In this document: positions 6,201 through 56,519 of the stretch, piece after piece
Numbering within the stretch: position 1 is the stretch's first letter
Layout of the letters: the number at the start of each line of letters is the position of its first letter
DNA from: Meghimatium bilineatum
Taxonomy: Eukaryota; Mollusca; Gastropoda; Stylommatophora; Philomycidae
Length of the DNA: 64,000 bases
Reading direction: 5' to 3'
Assembly: GCA_034231615.1 (NCBI GenBank)
Contig: CM067318.1
Span: forward strand, 36,055,382-36,119,381
Notes under the pieces: model-generated
What the model was told of the DNA's origin: nothing
Databases searched by the model: none
What the model saw: the letters and a program-made list of their open reading frames with translations, nothing else
Made by a program: the position numbers and the translations under genes

Positions 6201-9200
6201 TAACGATGCATGGCTGTTTAACAGTACTACACTGTCTTCAAGGGACAATTTTCAGGTATTACTTAAGTTGTTCTATTGTTTAGAATAGTTAGTGTGGCCA
6301 TTTTTTTTATATGACCTGTAGGAAAATGATATATTGTTTGTATTTTTAAACTAAATTTTCACAGGTATTCTTAATACAATTCTTGAAGTTGCTCTAGAAT
6401 AACATTCAGAATGGATGGCTACACCATGATTACATGGAATAATAAATACTATGTTATTATAATTTTGTTACTGCTGCACTCTCCACCTTGTTGGATACTC
6501 TCTGACAGTTTGGCTATTTATGCTTAGATGGAGCATATTGGCGTTTCACACCTGAGGAACTGTACACTAGATTGCTTTTGTATCCTCTAGCTTGCTTTTG
6601 AACCCAGTTTGATAAATGTTGCCCTATAATGTGCTTTAGTACTTGATGCCATGTATCTTCTTCTTCTGCGTTCGCTTTCAAACTCCTGCAGATTAGCAGG
6701 ATGTACTCCGGAGAACGGAATGCGTTGTGTCATGGTTTACAGCATTGCTGCAATATCTGCGCCTTTTGGCCTGACACATCCGACTTCAGCATGGCTTTGG
6801 GTCACTGACCCTATATGGGATGGGACAGCCAACTCCATCCCATAACCTCCTTAGTCGCCTTTTACGACATGCGTGGAAGGTAAACAGTGTTGCTATTCTT
6901 TGCTCCACTTTCGGGCCCTGGCAACACCCGTGCGGATGCCACGTATAATATTAGCCAAGCCTGATAAAACTCATTACTTCATTCCATGAAAATATTAGGA
7001 CTATCATCCAGTTTGATGACTTTTCAGCCTGGTCTGTCTTATAGCCAAATCAGGCAAATGAGATCCTTCTCTGTGAACTGCTGTGCACTGATGATGTGAC
7101 ATTAGCTGCTTATAATGAGACTATTTTGCAAGATCTGATTTAGATTAGCAGCTGGTAAGGGCCTGTGATGTTCTCATTATCAATAAACATCAAGAAAACT
7201 GCTATTGTGTCTTCTTCTTCTTCTTCTTTCGTTCACTTGAAACATGTCTATATCTGTAATTCTGTCTCCTTAATAAAACTGCTATTGTGTCAAAATACTA
7301 TTACAGCACCAAACATCACCCTCAACAACTTCAATCAGCATATAGCTTCAGTTATCTAAGATCCACATTCACCACAAAATTCTCACTTGAAGTAAGTGCT
7401 TGCATAGGAAAAGCTGCCACCAAGTTTGTTAAACTGTCAAATAGAGTATGGAACAATAAGAAGTTGGCAATAGAGACCAAAATCTTGATTCACCAGGCAT
7501 ACAAACTCTGGTTATTTTATGGGATCTGAAACATGGATGCCATAACTCACAACAAGAACAAGATTGAACATCTTCCATTTGCAATGTATCCACAAAAATT
7601 TTTTATATCAAGGATAAAATTATCAACATTGAGGTCCTGCACTTGTACAAGCTTCTAACATAACTCTCCACACTCTGTCACAATCAATACAAGATAACTG
7701 CGTGAAACGTAACAACAATTAGACTTACGTAAAACACAGGTTTATATATCGTTTCAATGGGACACGACAGACTATAGCTAAAACTAGTAGGTTGTGATAA
7801 TTTTTCCATTCGTCGTCTTTTGATGTTTTATTTGTGTCTTGATAAAGACCTTTTGGTTGAAACGTTGAATGTGATTTGTGTATTGTAATTTTTATGATTT
7901 CTTGTGTGCTCATCATTGCCTACTAGTTTTAGCTATAGTCTGTCGTGTCCCATTGAAATGATATATAAACCTGTGTTTTATGTAAGTACACTCTGTCACA
8001 GAAGACTTAGCCATATTGAAAAAATGATCAGACATAGCTCCATCCCAAAAAAGAAAATTGTATGGGGAAATTCACAAGGTGCTAGAAGAAAAGGCAAATC
8101 AAAGCTGTGTTACAAAGATATATGCATCAATTAATGTTTTTGTCATTGCTATGACAACTAGGATAATATGACAGAAGATCATATCACATTGAGTACAATC
8201 CTGCTAGTGGTGCTGGCAAGTTTTGAGGCGCAGAACAGACAAATGCAACTTAAGATGCAACAGTCCAGTGATGACAAGGCCATATATAATCAGTACTTTG
8301 CTTCAACAGGGAAACACAGTGACCATAGGTGAGGTGAGAAAGTATATCCTCTTTTAAAAGATACATAGGTCACATAATCAATATCTTGACTTGGACTTTG
8401 AGTCCACATACTTTGGGATTGTTGCTGGAATGAAGAATAGAGCACTTATGGGAATGTACCCTGTTCTATGATTCTGGTTTTTAAACAAGAATTGATAGGA
8501 ACATAATGACATATTTTTAACATTCATAATATTATTTGTAAATGCATTATTGTTCATTCTTACAGGTTGTTTTTGAAGGAAAGGTTATAGGTCAGCATTC
8601 AACAGATATTGGCCTTGATGATATCACATTCACACCTGAATGTCAGCTGAAAAATCCATGTGAGTATTACCGAACTGGTAAAGATAGCATTTACTCTTTT
8701 TGGTTATTTAACTACTTTCATCCCAGTCAGACCATAGATGCTCTTCTCCAGCAGATCTTGAAGAAAATATATATGTTATCTTATGATAACATTCTTCCAT
8801 TTATGAATATTTGTATCTAAATGAATTTATGTAGATGTGTCTTTGTGTATAATTACATGCTGTTTATGTTAATAATAATAAATGGTTGTTTCTCCAGAAG
8901 GCATTATTCACTTCCTGTTTACAACTCACAATCTTAGTGATGTTTACAGTAAACATGGAACTACCAGATGGTGATATTTATAGAAAGACTGAAAGGCCTA
9001 AAGGATTAACTTCATTGTTCTTGGATTATTTCATATGTACTCTATTCCTCTCAACAAAGCGGGATGCCGCTGGACAAGAGTACCTCTCAAAGCACATAGC
9101 TCCCTAGCAATAATCCCCAGGGATCTCAGAAAATAGTCCACTTTATAAACAAGACTTTGCCAGCAGGATTTCAATTCATAACCTCTTGAGCACAAAACAA

Positions 9201-12200
9201 ATGGCGTAACTGGTATACAAAGAAGATCCCTGATGATATTCATATCCAACATCAAACTATCAACTCATGATATTCACATATTTTACTTTATTTTATAGCC
9301 ACAAACAGACCAGGAACCTCAAAAACAGTAATAACAGCTAAACCTGGCAGCGTTACAACAAATAGAATTTCAGCACAATCCAGTGTTATAACTACAGCTG
9401 GTGTTACAACTAAAGCTGGTGTTACGACTAAAGCTGGTGTTACAACTAAAGCTGGTGTTACAACTAAAGCTGGTGTTACAACTAAAGCTGGTGTTACAGC
9501 TCAGACTGGTGCTACTGTTCAAGTTCATACTGCTACTCAAAATGGTGTCACTTCTCAAACTAGCAAATTTGGCACCATGACCGCTTCTTCAGTTGTGCCA
9601 ACTGTGCAAGGTTCTATTGCAAGTGGAGATTCAGGTAATATAGATTATAATTATTTACTTATAACCAACATAGGAACATCATGAAATATAATAGATGCTG
9701 AAAATAGAATCACTGAAGATTTCAAAGCTCTGTATAATATAGATATGTTCATAAGAGGTGATGAAAATATCTTTTACAAGTTGCATATATTTCCAGCAAT
9801 AACGTTTATATTTCCTATGTGCAACTTTGATGTGGGGAGGGTTCCAAAGCTTTCTTTTATATTCAGAAGACTCCAACTCTCAGTGGTATGCAATGTATTG
9901 AGAAGAATCCTCTTACTCAGAGGAGTGTATATAGAAGGAGTGTGGACATATATAAAATGATGAATGGTTGAGCATATACAAACTTTCATGACAACTTTCT
10001 AGCATGGGAATAGAGATTGAGGCAGTTATCTTCAAGTGCCATTTCCATAATGAAAATTGGCTGCAATTTCAAAAAAAATAATCTTAAAGTGAACTTGTAG
10101 AGAACTTACCATATAACCTTCTTCATTGCAAGCACCTCACCCACATTCCTTTCGTAATGAGTGTAGATAGTCACACTATTTGTTTTGATTTGTACCACAA
10201 ACTTTGAAGCATTATATTTAATATAATTTAGTAACATATATGTGTCAGAAAGAAATGACAAACTACTAAACATATCTATATTGATATCCTAGAAAATCAC
10301 TACAGTAAAAATAATTTTTTTACGGAAAAAGTTCCATAGTTTAAAAAATTCACATTTTAAGGAAGGTCTAATAATTTGCCAGCAAAAGTTATTAAAAAGA
10401 ATGAATACAGAAGTTTTGTTTCCTGAATTTACTGCTGCTTCTTCTTCTTCTGCGTTCAATCTCAAACTCCTGCAGATTAGCAGGAGGTAGTCCAGAGAAC
10501 GGAATGTGCTGTGTCATGGTTTATAGCATTGCTGCGATATCTGCACCTTTCGGTCTGACACATCCGACTTCAGCATGGCTTTGGGTCTCTGACCCTATAT
10601 GGGGTGGGACAGCCAACTCCATCCCATAACCTCCTTAGTCGCCTTTTACGATATGCGTGGAAGGTAAACAGTGTTGCTGTTCTTTGCTCCCCTTTCGGGC
10701 CCTGGCAACACATGGACGACTGCTGCTTATAATGTACCGGGTAATTATTTTTGTGTTACCGTAGTTATTTCCTATTTATTGGACATACAAGTAAATGAAA
10801 CGGTTTATAATAATAAAATATAATGCAACATGGGAAACTGAGAACACACAACAGAACAAGAGACAGCAATCAATTCTGCTTGCAAGTAGCCTTTTATTAC
10901 AAACAAAAGTTACTGTTGATGTGTACACCTGTTGCACTTTTTCTGGATTCTATAGCCTGTGTAGAAGACTTATAGAATGACTCAGTCTGCAAAACTTCAT
11001 GAACGGGAGTATTCCTCTAACTTTAAACAAAGATACAACTTCCTTCTGTGTATGCAGAAGGCTCATAACATTCATGATTACCATTACTGTGTGAAATGAA
11101 AAAAATTACATCATATTGACATATGCTATCTGCAAAAAGTTGTATCTAAAAAGGCATGATTTTTTTGTAATATAAAAACGCAAATTGTATACCCATTTAA
11201 CAAGAAAGTGCCGATTTTTTCAATGAAATTATACTGATATATTTATATTTTTCAGATACATGGAAAGTGCCTGTTGTAGTTGTGTTTGGACTTTTAGCAT
11301 TTGTGGCAGTGATTTTTGGTATTTTTATCTATCTGAAGCGTACACGCAACTTGTAAGTTCTTGTTCAAATCTTTAGAATGTATGATATAAAATAATATCT
11401 AGATATTTATGCTTTATAATGGACATTCCTATTAGTTCCTTTACTCTTTCTATCAAATGTTTTTTTTTACAATTAACAAATACTGCTATGATTTCAATCC
11501 ATAATTGTGCAAAATTCTCAAACAAAGAAACAATGAGTATTATTTACAGTTGTATTTTCACTAATCACAGCTCTAAAGAATCGACATACAAATAACTTAA
11601 TGATATAATAGACTTGTTTGAAACTGGTCCAATGTTTTAATCAAATCTACAATCTAGTGGGTACTGTCACACATCTCTGGTAGCAAAAAAGCAGACAGGG
11701 CTAATCAAAGAAGGTGAAAACTATTGAATAAAATGATATTAGAAGCACTTATAAAGATGCCACAACAACTATAACAGACAGTCTAGAATTACAGGTAACA
11801 GTCTACTTGTTGCAATATCTCTCTTCATGTATTTTTATTTATGTTTAGCCATTTGTTCTTGTTCCTCTTTGATTTTGCTATAATGTGTGTGTGTTTTTTA
11901 CCCAGATATTAATATTTAGTCCATATTTTCTGCTAGATTTGTCTACTTGATCTATTAGTCTTTATATTTCCTATTCACTTCCTGATAAGAGGACTGTGTT
12001 ATCTTCATATCATAGATTGTTCTGTGTAATTTTTATTTTTACAAATTTTTCTGTATAGATGTTAAATAGGCTGGGTAATAAAATACATCCTTATCTTGCT
12101 CATCTTTGTGTATATATATATATATGTATAGTTAGTAGTTATTCTCCCACCTTATTGATGCAGTTTGTTCCCAATATATATTTTCGGTCTGCCTGACATC

Positions 12201-16289: not shown

Positions 16290-17800
16290 GGTTATTCATG
16301 TGATCTCCGGCTGGGAGTGTATTTACATTGTGCCACTGTTATGTGCCTTGCAGGCCCAGCACATCCGATTTCTTTATGCCTTGACATTTTGGGTGGGCTA
16401 CCCTAGCCTGTGACAGCCTTCCTATCTGTCGCCAAGCAGCGAATATGCACTGACTCTACGCTGAGATGGTTTGTCCTTCACATCTATCTTGCACGAGGTG
16501 TCCTGCCACTAGTGAACTTGTCGTGTAATTAGACGTATTGTGCCCAAACCCATTGGGTACTGAACCTTTTCTCATCCTCGAGCCCGGTTCTTTTTTAGGA
16601 AGAACTCAAAGGGTTGGGCTCTGACTCGTTCGCCCTCTTAGCGAAAGTGTTGTTCACCAACGTCGTGAACCACTCGTCCAAGTCTGAACATATATTTAGG
16701 AGTGTCAAGGACTAGCATTTTGTTCTAGAGCTGAACAGTGCCTGTCACTTTGGACTTCTGTGCCTGTGCCCATCGGGTACTGAACCTTTTCTCTCAGTGA
16801 GCATGATTCCGGTATAGGAAAAACTTGATAGTAGAGTTGGGCATGGACTGGGATCGCTGGTAATTATAAGCTTGTCTCGAGTAAACAACACTTTATTTCC
16901 AATTTCCTTGAAACGTTTCCTTTCTCTTTGCACATGCCGCTGCCCTCTAACGATGTGCTCCATTTTCATTGTACTCATTCTGCTATTATTCTTATGTTGC
17001 TTAACGCACCAATCATATTTCTAATAACATCTGCCCACTTTGTAACGACTGCATTGGCCGCCCCTCCAATGCTTCTCCTGAGTTGTCCTGCTTCACTGTG
17101 TGTCGGCAGTGCTACCGTGTGTCAGCAGTGCTGTTGCATGTGGTTGCGCGGAGGTATCAGAGATATTGCCTTTCTATTTGCAGTCAAATCTCTTTCCATC
17201 TACAGCATCCACATCTACAGACATGAGCAAAGAGCCACTGTATTTCTGTTACCAGGGTGCACCACAAGGAGGTACTCTTAGGATCTTGGTTATCTGCTAA
17301 CCCTGGGTCCGCCGAGAGCAGTGCGGTACCCTTGGCACCCCCTGTGTTTTCTTATAATGTAACTTCTCATTCTTGTATTGTGTTAAATTTTTTATTTACT
17401 CATTTTTTCATTTATGTTAGATTATTGAAATACATAATTCTATAAAGTGCCCTTCTATATTGGTACCCTGTTCTCTGTTTGTTTGTCCCTATCTTGATAA
17501 AGATATTTTGATCTAAACATTGATTTCGTTCTATTGTGGGCACTCTGTAAAACCTGTTTACCCGGTAACCTATTTTATATTTTTTTATAATTATTTATCT
17601 ATATGGAAATGTGCTGCCGCATTCCAACTTACAAGGAAAGGACTGATTTGGAGTTTGAAGAGCTGATAAATTAGGAGGCCAAATGGTTCTCTTTTGTAAG
17701 CACCCTCGAGATCAATTTCAGCAGAACATGATTGTGGAAATGTATATGTTTCCATCAATGATGATCCTTTCCTCTCTGTTAAGTAGATTCTCAACTGTGA
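16290..17800 (-). repeat. R3 dispersed repeat, about 1-1.5 kb, sense probably minus
   Basis: It matches 48190-49252 in reverse and 46908-47720 in the same direction. Shared blocks include TGTGACAGCCTTCCTAT, CCCATCGGGTACTGAACC, a GATTCCGGTATAGGAAAAAC-like block and, at 17265-17310, GGATCTTGGTTATCTGCTAA. In the sense direction a weakly similar open frame recurs (SYTGIMLTERKGSVPDG here, SYTGNMLVERKGSVPKG in the other copy). No known protein domain was recognised. Confidence 0.7.
17494..17523 (+). repeat. Degenerate hammerhead-like motif (Penelope-related remnant)
   Basis: TTGATAAAGATATTTTGATC with TAAACATTGA is a degraded version of the motif at 7839-7868. Only the core and short flanks are recognisable. 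Confidence 0.4.
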
Positions 17801-21360: not shown

Positions 21361-21409
21361 AACTAAACACTGAATAAGAAAAGTAACTCTTATCTCATTA
21401 CAAATTGTA

Positions 21410-21605
21410 CTTACATAAAATACAGATTTTTATAATAGTTTCACTCAGACACGACTATCACTAAAATGAGTGGGTAATGATGTGCACACAAGAAAAAATA
21501 CAAATTACAATACACAAAACATTTTAAAAGTTTCAACCAAAAGGTCTTTATCAAGATACGCACAAAACATCAAAAGATGACGAATGAAAATTATCACAAC
21601 ACATA
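21410..21605 (-). mobile_element. Inverted-arm element with hammerhead-like motif, truncated copy
   Basis: Homologous to the right half of 7683-7987 in reverse: it starts ACTTACATAAAATACAG (arm), and 21530-21554 is the reverse complement of the TTGATAAAGACCTTTTGGTT core. It stops in the centre at a TTATCACAAC also found in the complete copy. Confidence 0.6.
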
Positions 21606-22162: not shown

Positions 22163-23023
22163 TCATTGCTGGAATGTACTGTTCTTTCTGATGTACTGTG
22201 CCAGTTCCTTGTTCAATCCTTCAGCTTCCATTAGTTTCTTTTCCAGTACTTGAGCATGCTTCATTGCCTTTTCAAGAAGTTGGTCCTTTTGTCGAATCAA
22301 GGCCTCAGCATCTGTCAGCTTTTTCTCCACGTCCTTCCATTTGGCAACTGAATCTTGGAAAACACTCTGGCTAACTTCTAGATCCTTGCATCTTTTCCTC
22401 AAAGCACATATTCTGATTCCATTCCTCTTCTTGGTCTGATTTGTCCTCTTAACAGAATATGTGGCCTTGATATCCTGATTCACCTTCCTTATTGCCTTCA
22501 GCTTCCTTGACAAAGACTCACACTTCTTCGTCATATTTGCAACTGTGCGCTTCTTTTTTGCACAGGCATCACAGTCATATCTCATCTTCTTAGGGGATGG
22601 TGATCTATTTAGTGTACCCGAGAAACAAGGTTGCATATTAAAAGTACATGAAAGAGGTGATGAATGAATTTGAGTAGAATGATGTTGCAAATCATCACTA
22701 GTCAATTTACTAATAAATGATATAGGGAATTGCTCAGGTAAAAAATTCATAAGTATGGACCAGTCTTTGTTGGACATACTCTTTAAATGTTTCGTCAGTT
22801 TTACATTAAAACGCTTCAAAGCTGAAAGAAGACAAGATTCATTGATACGCTTATCTGGTTCTGCAACAAGCACAAGAGACTGGATCTTCCTCATTACATC
22901 TACTGGGGTATTGGTGCGGTCCAGTAACAGCTGTGCAGCATAGCCTTTCTTTACTGGGTACTCAGGTGCAAACTGAGCTACATGTGCCTTCAGATCATGT
23001 ATATTCTTCTTGCTTGCCATCAT
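22163..23023 (-). CDS. Unrecognised basic coiled-coil protein, 286 aa
   Basis: A single long open frame reads on the minus strand from ATG at 23023 to a stop at 22163. I do not recognise the family. Residues 1-115 look globular and mixed (ends ...SNKDWSILMNFLPEQFP). A Ser/Pro-rich link follows (LNRSPSPKK, about 141-149). CDACAKKKR (about 153-161), with one more Cys at about 170, could be half of a metal site but is not a classic zinc finger. From about 160 to 225 it is strongly basic; about 225-280 is heptad-rich with ADAEALIRQKDQLLEK-like register, so a coiled coil. Nuclear location is plausible from the basic stretches. The gene is not flanked by inverted repeats, has low Met/Cys bias and shows no transposase motif. 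A spliced 5' leader is likely (next entry). Two starts (Met1 and Met2) are adjacent. Confidence 0.75.
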   Translation of the reverse strand: MMASKKNIHDLKAHVAQFAPEYPVKKGYAAQLLLDRTNTPVDVMRKIQSLVLVAEPDKRINESCLLSALKRFNVKLTKHLKSMSNKDWSILMNFLPEQFPISFISKLTSDDLQHHSTQIHSSPLSCTFNMQPCFSGTLNRSPSPKKMRYDCDACAKKKRTVANMTKKCESLSRKLKAIRKVNQDIKATYSVKRTNQTKKRNGIRICALRKRCKDLEVSQSVFQDSVAKWKDVEKKLTDAEALIRQKDQLLEKAMKHAQVLEKKLMEAEGLNKELAQYIRKNSTFQQ

Positions 23024-23028
23024 GTCTT

Positions 23029-23674
23029 CTATAAAAACAATAATATAAATATAAGTAAGAAATTCAGGGTATAAAAGAACACAATATTAAAAATTTCGTT
23101 TGATAATTAAAATAAATACATTACATTATTTATTATAAAGTACAAAATAAAATTGAAGCCTCACTAGCTCCAGGCAGAGATATAAATTAAGTGCTCACCC
23201 TCAGCTCATCCCTTTTGCTGCCTTGTAATACAGGACTTTAGTGTGAAAATGTGAGCTCTCTGCCCTCAATGGGAAGTTTCTTAAAAGTTTTATGCGCCAA
23301 TGATAATTACAAAAGTACAATGCTAAGCCTAGAAACTCAAGGTTTATTGTAGGCCTAATTTAAATGTAACATCATTAAGCCTTATAATATTTATATAATA
23401 GGCATAGATCTAAAACCAACATTATCATATTAAGGACTTTCCAATAAATTTACTTTCATGAAGCCTACATTTTAAAAAAAACACTTCCGTCGTATTGGCA
23501 ATTGCATGGTAGTACACTCATAAATGTTGATTTACATTTTACATTGTAACTACATGATCTAGATATTTATACAGTAGATGCACATATGATTTTTAGAAAA
23601 GCCATATGTAAATTAGAGACATAAGAATTACAATATTTAAACAAGAATATTTATTTAAATACACAATTGTTACC
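23029..23674 (-). other. Probable 5' UTR intron of the coiled-coil gene
   Basis: On the minus strand an acceptor TTTTTATAG sits six bases before the start codon (exon begins 23028), and a donor GCAG|GTAACA lies at 23674/23673. This would give a non-coding first exon ending at 23674. It is inferred from splice-site fit only; the intron itself shows no repeat. Confidence 0.45.
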
Positions 23675-24081: not shown

Positions 24082-24245
24082 TTTTCTTCTTCTGCGTTCG
24101 TTCTCAAACTCCTGCAGATTAGCAGGATGTAGTCCGGAGAACGGAATGCGCTGTGTCATGGTTTACAGCATTGCTGCGATATCTGCGCCTTTCGGTCTGA
24201 CACATCCGACTTCAGCGTGGCTCTGGGTCACTGACCCTGTTGTTC
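24082..24245 (-). mobile_element. R1 SINE-like element, 5'-truncated
   Basis: Close match to the tail half of R1 (CTTCTTCTGCGTTCGTTCTC to GGGTCACTGACCCT). The part with the GGCGACTAAG block is missing; since sense is minus, this is a 5' truncation. No target duplication was found. Confidence 0.75.
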
Positions 24246-27149: not shown

Positions 27150-41891
<14,742 letters not shown>

Positions 41892-55450: not shown

Positions 55451-56519
55451 CGAGGCGTGTTCAAATGAAAACGGGACTTGTTACACCACGCGTGATAGAG
55501 CGCACTAATATTGATGACATTTTGCACTAGTAATGAGTATCCAATAATTTACATACGGTCACGTGTTCATCTTCCCAGCATGCATATGTGCTGCAGAAGA
55601 CTGTTAACAATATGGCGGGTGTGATTCCGAACCCGTCCAAAGTGAATCAGCGTGCTGTGATCCAGTTTCTTTCATTTGAAGGATGTCAAGCAGTAGACAT
55701 TCATCGGAGAATGAAGGCAGCATATGGTGACAAATGTTTGTCGAGGACCAGAGTGATGGAGTGGGTGCGTATGTTTAAAGACGGACGTGAGTTAACGGCA
55801 GATCTTGCACGGCCAGGTCAGGCGCATATTGTTGCAACAGAAGAAGCCATAGCCGTGCTTGATAAAGCAGTACTGACTGACCGTCGTCGGAGCATTCGTT
55901 CGCTTGCAGAAGAATTCCATATGTCAATTGGGACAGCCCACATGGTTGTTCGGAAGAAATTGAACTATCGGAAGGTGTGTTCACAGTGGGTCCCACGGAT
56001 GTTGACTGACCACCATAAGGAAGAACGGATGGGGTGGAGTTTGAACCACCTGATGCGTTACAGGGCAGAGGGTGATGCATTTCTGTTGAGCATTGTGGCA
56101 GGTGATGAATCGTGGTGCCACCACTATGAACCGAGCAGCAAAATTGACAGCATGCAATGGAAACATCCAGGTTCACCAAAACCCAAAAAATTCAAGACAC
56201 AGGTTTCTGCAGATTTCCATTTGTTCGGACCGTTGAAGAAAGCACTAAAGGGACAGCGATTCAACAGCGACGCAGACGTGAAGACAGCGGTGACCACATG
56301 GTTCAGAGAACAGCCACGCAACTTTTTCTCGGACAGCATTCGACGTCTACCTAAACAGTGGGATGCTTGCCTAAATGCATACGGAGATTTTTTCTGATGA
56401 ACCCAGGTGCATTCTTATTCACAAGTGGTTGCTTTGTTCAATTCCGTTGAAAATATTAAATTGCGTATGAAACTTTTAAAATAAATCCACAAGTCCCGTT
56501 TTCATTTGAACACGCCTCA
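55451..56519 (+). mobile_element. mariner-family transposon, internally deleted, both ends intact
   Basis: 31-bp terminal inverted repeats (GAGGCGTGTTCAAATGAAAA then CGGGACTTGT), differing only at the outermost base, flanked by TA at 55449-55450 and 56520-56521. Length 1069 bp. The interior is one open transposase frame. Confidence 0.97.
55588..56397 (+). CDS. mariner transposase, in-frame internal deletion
   Basis: 269 residues against about 345 usual for the family. An N-terminal Mos1-type HTH domain (about 20-65, QAVDIHRRMKAAYGDKCLSR then VMEWVRMFKDG) and second HTH (about 88-125, RRRSIRSLAEEFHMSIGTAH) are intact. The catalytic domain keeps the first Asp (VAGDESWCHHYEP) and the third (SADFHLFGPLKK), then LPKQWDACLNAYGDFF. 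Between FKTQVS and ADFHLF (about 56200-56215) some 75 residues, including the HDN block with the second catalytic Asp, are missing, so it cannot cut DNA but should still bind its ends and perhaps dimerise. Met9 may be the true start. Confidence 0.93.
   Translation: MLQKTVNNMAGVIPNPSKVNQRAVIQFLSFEGCQAVDIHRRMKAAYGDKCLSRTRVMEWVRMFKDGRELTADLARPGQAHIVATEEAIAVLDKAVLTDRRRSIRSLAEEFHMSIGTAHMVVRKKLNYRKVCSQWVPRMLTDHHKEERMGWSLNHLMRYRAEGDAFLLSIVAGDESWCHHYEPSSKIDSMQWKHPGSPKPKKFKTQVSADFHLFGPLKKALKGQRFNSDADVKTAVTTWFREQPRNFFSDSIRRLPKQWDACLNAYGDFF

Follow-up and report, generated by a model that had tools for sequence, protein, structure and literature searches.

A 305-bp insertion in the genome of the gastropod Meghimatium bilineatum is probably a dead, 5'-truncated copy of a Penelope-like element (PLE), consisting of two head-to-head pieces of a pseudo-LTR (pLTR) that would have been primed separately on the two nicked strands of the target and carrying a minimal hammerhead-like motif with a U3-A8 core pair. 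The insertion lies within a stretch of 64,000 nucleotides of contig CM067318.1 (positions 36,055,382 to 36,119,381), hereafter called the window. It has an exact target-site duplication (TSD) and two inverted arms that are placed asymmetrically about the target site, and its central motif is repeated elsewhere in the window (Table 1). An insertion of this kind is already known, and the present one is an ordinary PLE fossil; the details that merit a genome-wide count are its one-sided tail and its U3-A8 core.

Table 1. Positions of the insertion, its parts and the further copies of its right part and motif in the window
Feature	Position	Strand	Remark
Insertion	7683..7987	+	305 bp; sense taken from the orientation of the motif
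Left TSD copy, ACACTCTGTCACA	7670..7682	.	13 bp, exact
Right TSD copy, ACACTCTGTCACA	7988..8000	.	13 bp, exact
Extension outside left arm	7683..7722	-	40 bp; read as an optional PLE tail, of putative element origin
Left arm	7723..7791	-	inverted, 5'-truncated copy of the putative element's 3' end
Right part	7792..7987	+	direct pLTR-like copy; its last 69 bp are the right arm (7919-7987)
Copy A, motif CTTGATAAAGACCTTTTGGTTGAAACGTTGA	7838..7868	+	31 nt, hammerhead-like
Copy B, right part	21409..21600	-	82.3% over 198 columns; without a long inverted arm
Copy B, motif	21525..21555	-	2 mismatches
Copy C, motif	40518..40548	+	2 mismatches; flanks unlike
Copy D, motif	17493..17523	+	decayed; stem II C-G to U-A; G12 is U

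Structure of the insertion and its target site

A preliminary description of this DNA, made from the letters alone, had reported the insert with 69-bp inverted arms, an exact 13-bp TSD and a central motif, and all of these were confirmed. The two arms (7723-7791 and 7919-7987) are identical at 67 of 69 positions (97.1%), and the repeat search extended them to 76 bp at 93%. Both mismatches (right-arm positions 7959 and 7981) read CG in the left arm and TG in the right arm, a pattern from which the arms were probably identical at landing. The 69-bp arms are separated by 127 nt, and the junction is not palindromic. As expected given the arms, the RNA fold of the insert had a z of -15.28. The insert contains no open reading frame (ORF) for RT or GIY-YIG, no long reading frame was seen by eye in the element's 3' end or in the 40-bp extension, and the tRNA scan found no tRNA. 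The best Rfam matches in the insert, MIR1509 (E 0.041) and Histone3 (E 0.26 and 0.078), were far below the gathering scores and were judged to be chance.

The preliminary description did not include the 40-bp extension at 7683-7722, which makes the arms asymmetric about the target site: the TSD abuts the right arm but is separated from the left arm by 40 bp. Read in the sense of the element, the left copy continues past GTAAGT into the 40 bp, whereas the right copy ends at GTAAGT. The outer flanks of the two arms are unrelated (9/40 identical; shuffle mean 9.9), which argues against copying of the left arm from the finished cDNA of the right arm together with the target flank. No other copy of the 40-bp extension was found in the window, where the best other match was 11 bp.

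The two TSD copies are spaced 318 bp apart. In simulated 64-kb sequences (n=20), exact 13-mer repeats 200-450 bp apart occurred 0-4 times per sequence (mean 1.0), and the weight of the TSD therefore comes from its position beside the arms and not from the repeat alone. When tandem arrays were excluded, no other anchor in the window had an exact 13-mer repeat within 60 bp of the same distance. The target has a G+C content of 6/13 and is thus not AT-rich.

The insertion interrupts an element taken to be a LINE from an apparent similarity to LINEs and from a sub-threshold Pfam match to DUF6451 (E 0.055); a second piece of this LINE gave no match. The host element carries many stops and frameshifts. 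The LINE-like peptide resumes in the same frame beyond the insertion site, with an in-frame stop just upstream of the site, and because 318 is divisible by 3, the two sides would share a frame whether or not the insert were present. The earlier claim that the insertion is younger than the LINE is supported by the anatomy; its wording that the insertion is "dated by its LINE host" stands for the order of events and for nothing more. One copy of an interspersed repeat (6656-6927, 10440-10711 and 24084-24238; 93-94% identity) is located upstream of the host LINE.

Resemblance to Penelope-like elements

The combination of inverted arms, a TSD and a one-sided extension matches the published PLE pattern, and the anatomy thus makes the reading of the insert as a PLE remnant well supported. 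According to the accessible part of PMC3846280, PLEs of Adineta vaga have inverted pLTRs, one of which may bear a 31-bp tail, and a TSD; there the TSDs are 8-10 bp, some such copies are without a TSD, and the pLTR of Pen2a includes the first 12 codons of the ORF. Excerpts of a curation guide likewise name inverted pLTRs among the peculiarities of PLEs, together with short 3' extensions (PMC8969392). In the PLE of the anole A. carolinensis, genomic copies may carry a tail of 30-40 bp that corresponds to the stretch between two RT start sites; the protein of this element cuts both strands and extends them, with a preference for an AT-rich target (PMC11167929). The insert matches by form the inverted pLTR pair and the short exact TSD, and it matches the tail in form only (40 bp on the left, none on the right), with a single copy in the window.

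The Penelope-derived identity proposed in the preliminary description was upheld by the anatomy, namely the inverted arms with their 3' ends outward and the one-sided 40-bp extension, but it received no confirmation from coding sequence: none of the 10 window peptides searched in Pfam, a subset of the frames, matched a PLE RT or GIY-YIG. PLEs encode an RT and, in the canonical types, a GIY-YIG endonuclease as well.

Further copies of the right part and the motif

Copy B also extends to GTAAGT. In a wider alignment of the insert with copy B (169/206 columns), the alignment overruns the right end of the insert by 9 columns (7/9 equal, by eye), so that copy B leaves the precise 3' terminus of the element unfixed. 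The only inverted pair in copy B is an A/T-rich one of 11 nt that lies outside the right part.

The 31-nt motif at 2 mismatches was found in 0 of 100 shuffles, and a match at the level of copy D (within 9 mismatches) in 0 of 20 mononucleotide shuffles. When the flanks of copies C and D were compared with the insert beyond the motif, nothing better than E 0.11 was obtained, and a match downstream of copy C (TTTCYTGTGTGCT, E 0.12) was not counted. No TSD was found adjacent to copies B, C or D, and the motif patterns had 0 matches in viral contigs and prokaryote genome contigs. The conservation of the motif alone amid unlike flanks suggests an RNA function, or shared descent of the motif part only. 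Short matches between the insert and a minisatellite at 37145-37435 (repeat of about 41 bp, by eye) were judged to be chance.

Other features were observed in the window. Two further minisatellites lie next to each other (30363-30925 and 31040-31582), and the second has an uninterrupted reading frame on each strand (178 and 179 aa). The repeats may resemble those of molluscs such as octopus. A long frame at 55537-56397 with a weak match to a Mos1-type HTH (E 0.0036, below the cut-off) is probably a remnant of a mariner transposase. An RNase H domain at 35693-36073 (Pfam E 3.5e-06, above the cut-off) is likely LINE-derived, and a 307-aa frame on the minus strand (22163-23086) matched no Pfam family above the cut-off and had weak coiled-coil matches only.

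A hammerhead-like core with a U3-A8 pair

In the alignment of the four copies, the motif can be read as stem I (UC/GA), a core UUGAUAA, an extra A, stem II (GACC/GGUU), GAAA, ACGU and U17, with positions given in hammerhead numbering. Compared with CUGANGA, there is a U at C3 and an A at G8, so that the CUGANGA letters are unmatched in all four copies, and the 3-8 pair is U3-A8 in every one of them. GAAA is kept in three copies and is UAAA in copy D. The preliminary description had regarded self-cleavage as doubtful since C3 and G8 are changed. Both are indeed changed, but the C3-G8 pair was overlooked; it is preserved as U3-A8, a reported natural variant. In the available portion of PMC3088659, U3-A8 occurs in natural hammerheads, and covarying 3-8 pairs are active in vitro. 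In the anole element, a single C3G or G8C change abolishes cleavage and the double change restores it partly (PMC11167929). Because C3 and G8 pair in the ribozyme and U3-A8 is natural, the C3-to-U and G8-to-A changes may, by analogy, compensate each other and would then not count against activity.

A hammerhead-like pattern (C3-G8 or U3-A8, stem II of at least 4 bp, GAAA) matched 4 times in the window, compared with a mean of 0.43 and a maximum of 2 in shuffles (n=100); these 4 matches are three copies of the motif and one stray (40083, minus). When positions 3 and 8 were left unconstrained, the 6 matches in the window were within the range of the shuffles (mean 2.57, max 7), and so gave no excess. 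A looser search for hammerhead-like patterns also returned 6 matches, three of the motif and three unrelated (42475 plus, 61858 minus and 13991 minus), which were not counted. Across the four copies, 92.9% of 28 stem cells are paired with 1 double change, and 126 of 500 shuffles were as high. Within stem II, 93.8% of cells form pairs, and copy D provides the sole two-sided change, C-G to U-A. At the base of this stem, a G-U could have come from a G-C through CpG decay, a reading consistent with the C that copy D retains there. Copy D is probably dead, since the change of GAAA to UAAA alters G12, which is named as the general base of the hammerhead in the portion of the literature at hand. A U3-A8 core in 4/4 copies with three kinds of flank would imply selection on the core pair and not on its letters.

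The preliminary description had proposed a check with Rfam hammerhead models, and this gave no match in the stretches searched: there was none in the whole window at the gathering score, and none at E up to 10 in 7600-8070, 7792-7930 and 40500-40620. The folding of the 35-nt motif did not surpass that of its shuffles (z -0.44 to -0.73). In the best fold, stem II is present in two copies (B and C), and the other two (A and D) form a hairpin UCUU-GAUA-AAGA. PLE hammerheads are described, in the part of the literature accessible to us, as minimal forms that lack helix III and may act as dimers, and the anole PLE hammerhead requires protein (PMC11167929), so that weak folding of the monomer is not decisive. 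The motif stands as a candidate ribozyme.

Apart from the identity of the element, and weighed separately from the readings of the insert given below, there is a considerable though less than even chance that the motif is no ribozyme and serves as the hairpin UCUU-GAUA-AAGA or as a protein-binding site of the element RNA. This hairpin is paired in 16/16 cells across the four copies and is the best fold in two of them, and the absence of an Rfam hammerhead match agrees with it. However, three of its four pairs are invariant in the copies and therefore provide no test of pairing, and the hairpin leaves both the conserved AAA half and the C-G to U-A change in stem II of copy D unexplained.

Proposed insertion mechanism and alternatives

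The best explanation would comprise a PLE identity, an element origin of the tail, two primings and a ribozyme role. On this proposal, the element enzymes would have nicked both target strands 13 bp apart, and the element RNA would have been reverse-transcribed from a separate start on each strand. On one strand, an outer RT start site would have given the 40-bp tail (7683-7722); on the other, an inner RT start site would have given no tail, with the end at 7987. The direct cDNA would then span 196 nt, from 7987 to about 7792, and the inverted one 109 nt, from 7683 to about 7791 with the tail counted in; the two would have met inside and been joined near 7791/7792, leaving the inverted arms and the 13-bp TSD. 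The cDNA junction has about one shared base, as judged by copy B. The central motif would be a minimal pLTR hammerhead with U3-A8, which would presumably act, probably as a dimer, in the processing of multimeric RNA of the element. With two separate initiations, the tail on one side, the head-to-head arrangement and the TSD would all be accounted for.

The main alternative is that the inverted arm of a PLE insertion arose by snap-back self-priming of one cDNA, as in the scheme for Penelope of A. vaga. We consider this unlikely. The scheme has been published for inverted repeats with palindromes at the junction (PMC3846280, as far as its accessible part goes), and the inner arm edges of the insert do share ATCA...C (ATCACAAC / ATCATTGC), a possible primer. 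However, the junction here is not palindromic, with the arms held apart by their 127-nt spacer, and a snap-back copy would enter target sequence beyond the arm and not a 40-bp tail that is lacking at the right end. The one-sided tail thus argues against snap-back, unless the 40 bp, present in a single copy in the window, is filler DNA, which it could be; in that case the argument for separate priming fails.

It is quite improbable that the insert is a MITE, a non-autonomous DNA transposon, bounded by long terminal inverted repeats. The insert is small, AT-rich and without an ORF, and its long inverted arms are 97% alike, all of which would suit a MITE, but the left repeat is not terminal and starts 40 bp inside the insert, and in copy B the right part occurs with no long inverted arm. 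In addition, a 13-bp TSD is not known to fit any common DNA-transposon superfamily. The least probable reading is a metazoan retrozyme, a small non-autonomous retroelement with a type I hammerhead, since retrozymes form direct tandem arrays and carry canonical type I hammerheads, and the insert is a single inverted pair with a minimal variant, even though the unit size (about 170-400 nt) and the hammerhead-like motif agree.

If separate priming of both strands is accepted, the insertion might further be taken, more tentatively, as a single-copy in vivo record of a PLE priming both nicked strands separately with a different RT start site on each, in a genome whose PLE hammerhead lineage is fixed for U3-A8. 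For the origin of inverted pLTRs, self-priming was proposed in 2013 (PMC3846280, in the part available), and the purified protein extends both strands in vitro (PMC11167929). One-sided tails are already in print (same part of PMC3846280). Neither the use of the tail against self-priming nor a U3-A8 core in a PLE was met in our literature search; key papers on PLE hammerheads lay outside it, and we do not claim that either is absent from print. A simple count of one-sided tails in any PLE-rich genome would separate self-priming from two-strand priming.

Comparison with known systems

The insertion is closest in form to the Pen2a-type PLE insertions of A. vaga. As far as the accessible part of PMC3846280 describes them, it shares their inverted pLTRs and short TSD, its putative one-sided tail fits theirs by form (about 31-40 bp), and like them it sits inside another retroelement. 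It differs from them in consisting of pLTR pieces only, without an ORF, in its 13-bp TSD and in its shorter left copy, and unlike in the Pen2a pLTR, no long ORF was seen entering its 3' end, although an ORF start may be situated farther out. In contrast to the preference of the anole PLE (PMC11167929), its target is not AT-rich. Metazoan non-LTR retrozymes, from the portion of PMC7229834 at hand, are likewise small, non-coding animal retroelements, and the insert resembles them in this and in its hammerhead-like motif; unlike the insert, they are arranged as direct tandem repeats and bear canonical type I ribozymes.

The candidate motif resembles the minimal hammerheads of PLE pLTRs, as given in the accessible parts of PMC11167929, PMC6155905 and PMC7761336, in having a core and GAAA around one stem-loop, with no helix III of its own, and in lying upstream of the 3' end of the insertion. 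It differs from them in the U3-A8 pair, the extra A after A9, the GUU triplet and a stem II weakened by G-U. With the natural U3-A8 hammerheads in the available portion of PMC3088659, to which we liken it by description and not by sequence, it has in common the replacement of C3-G8 by U3-A8.
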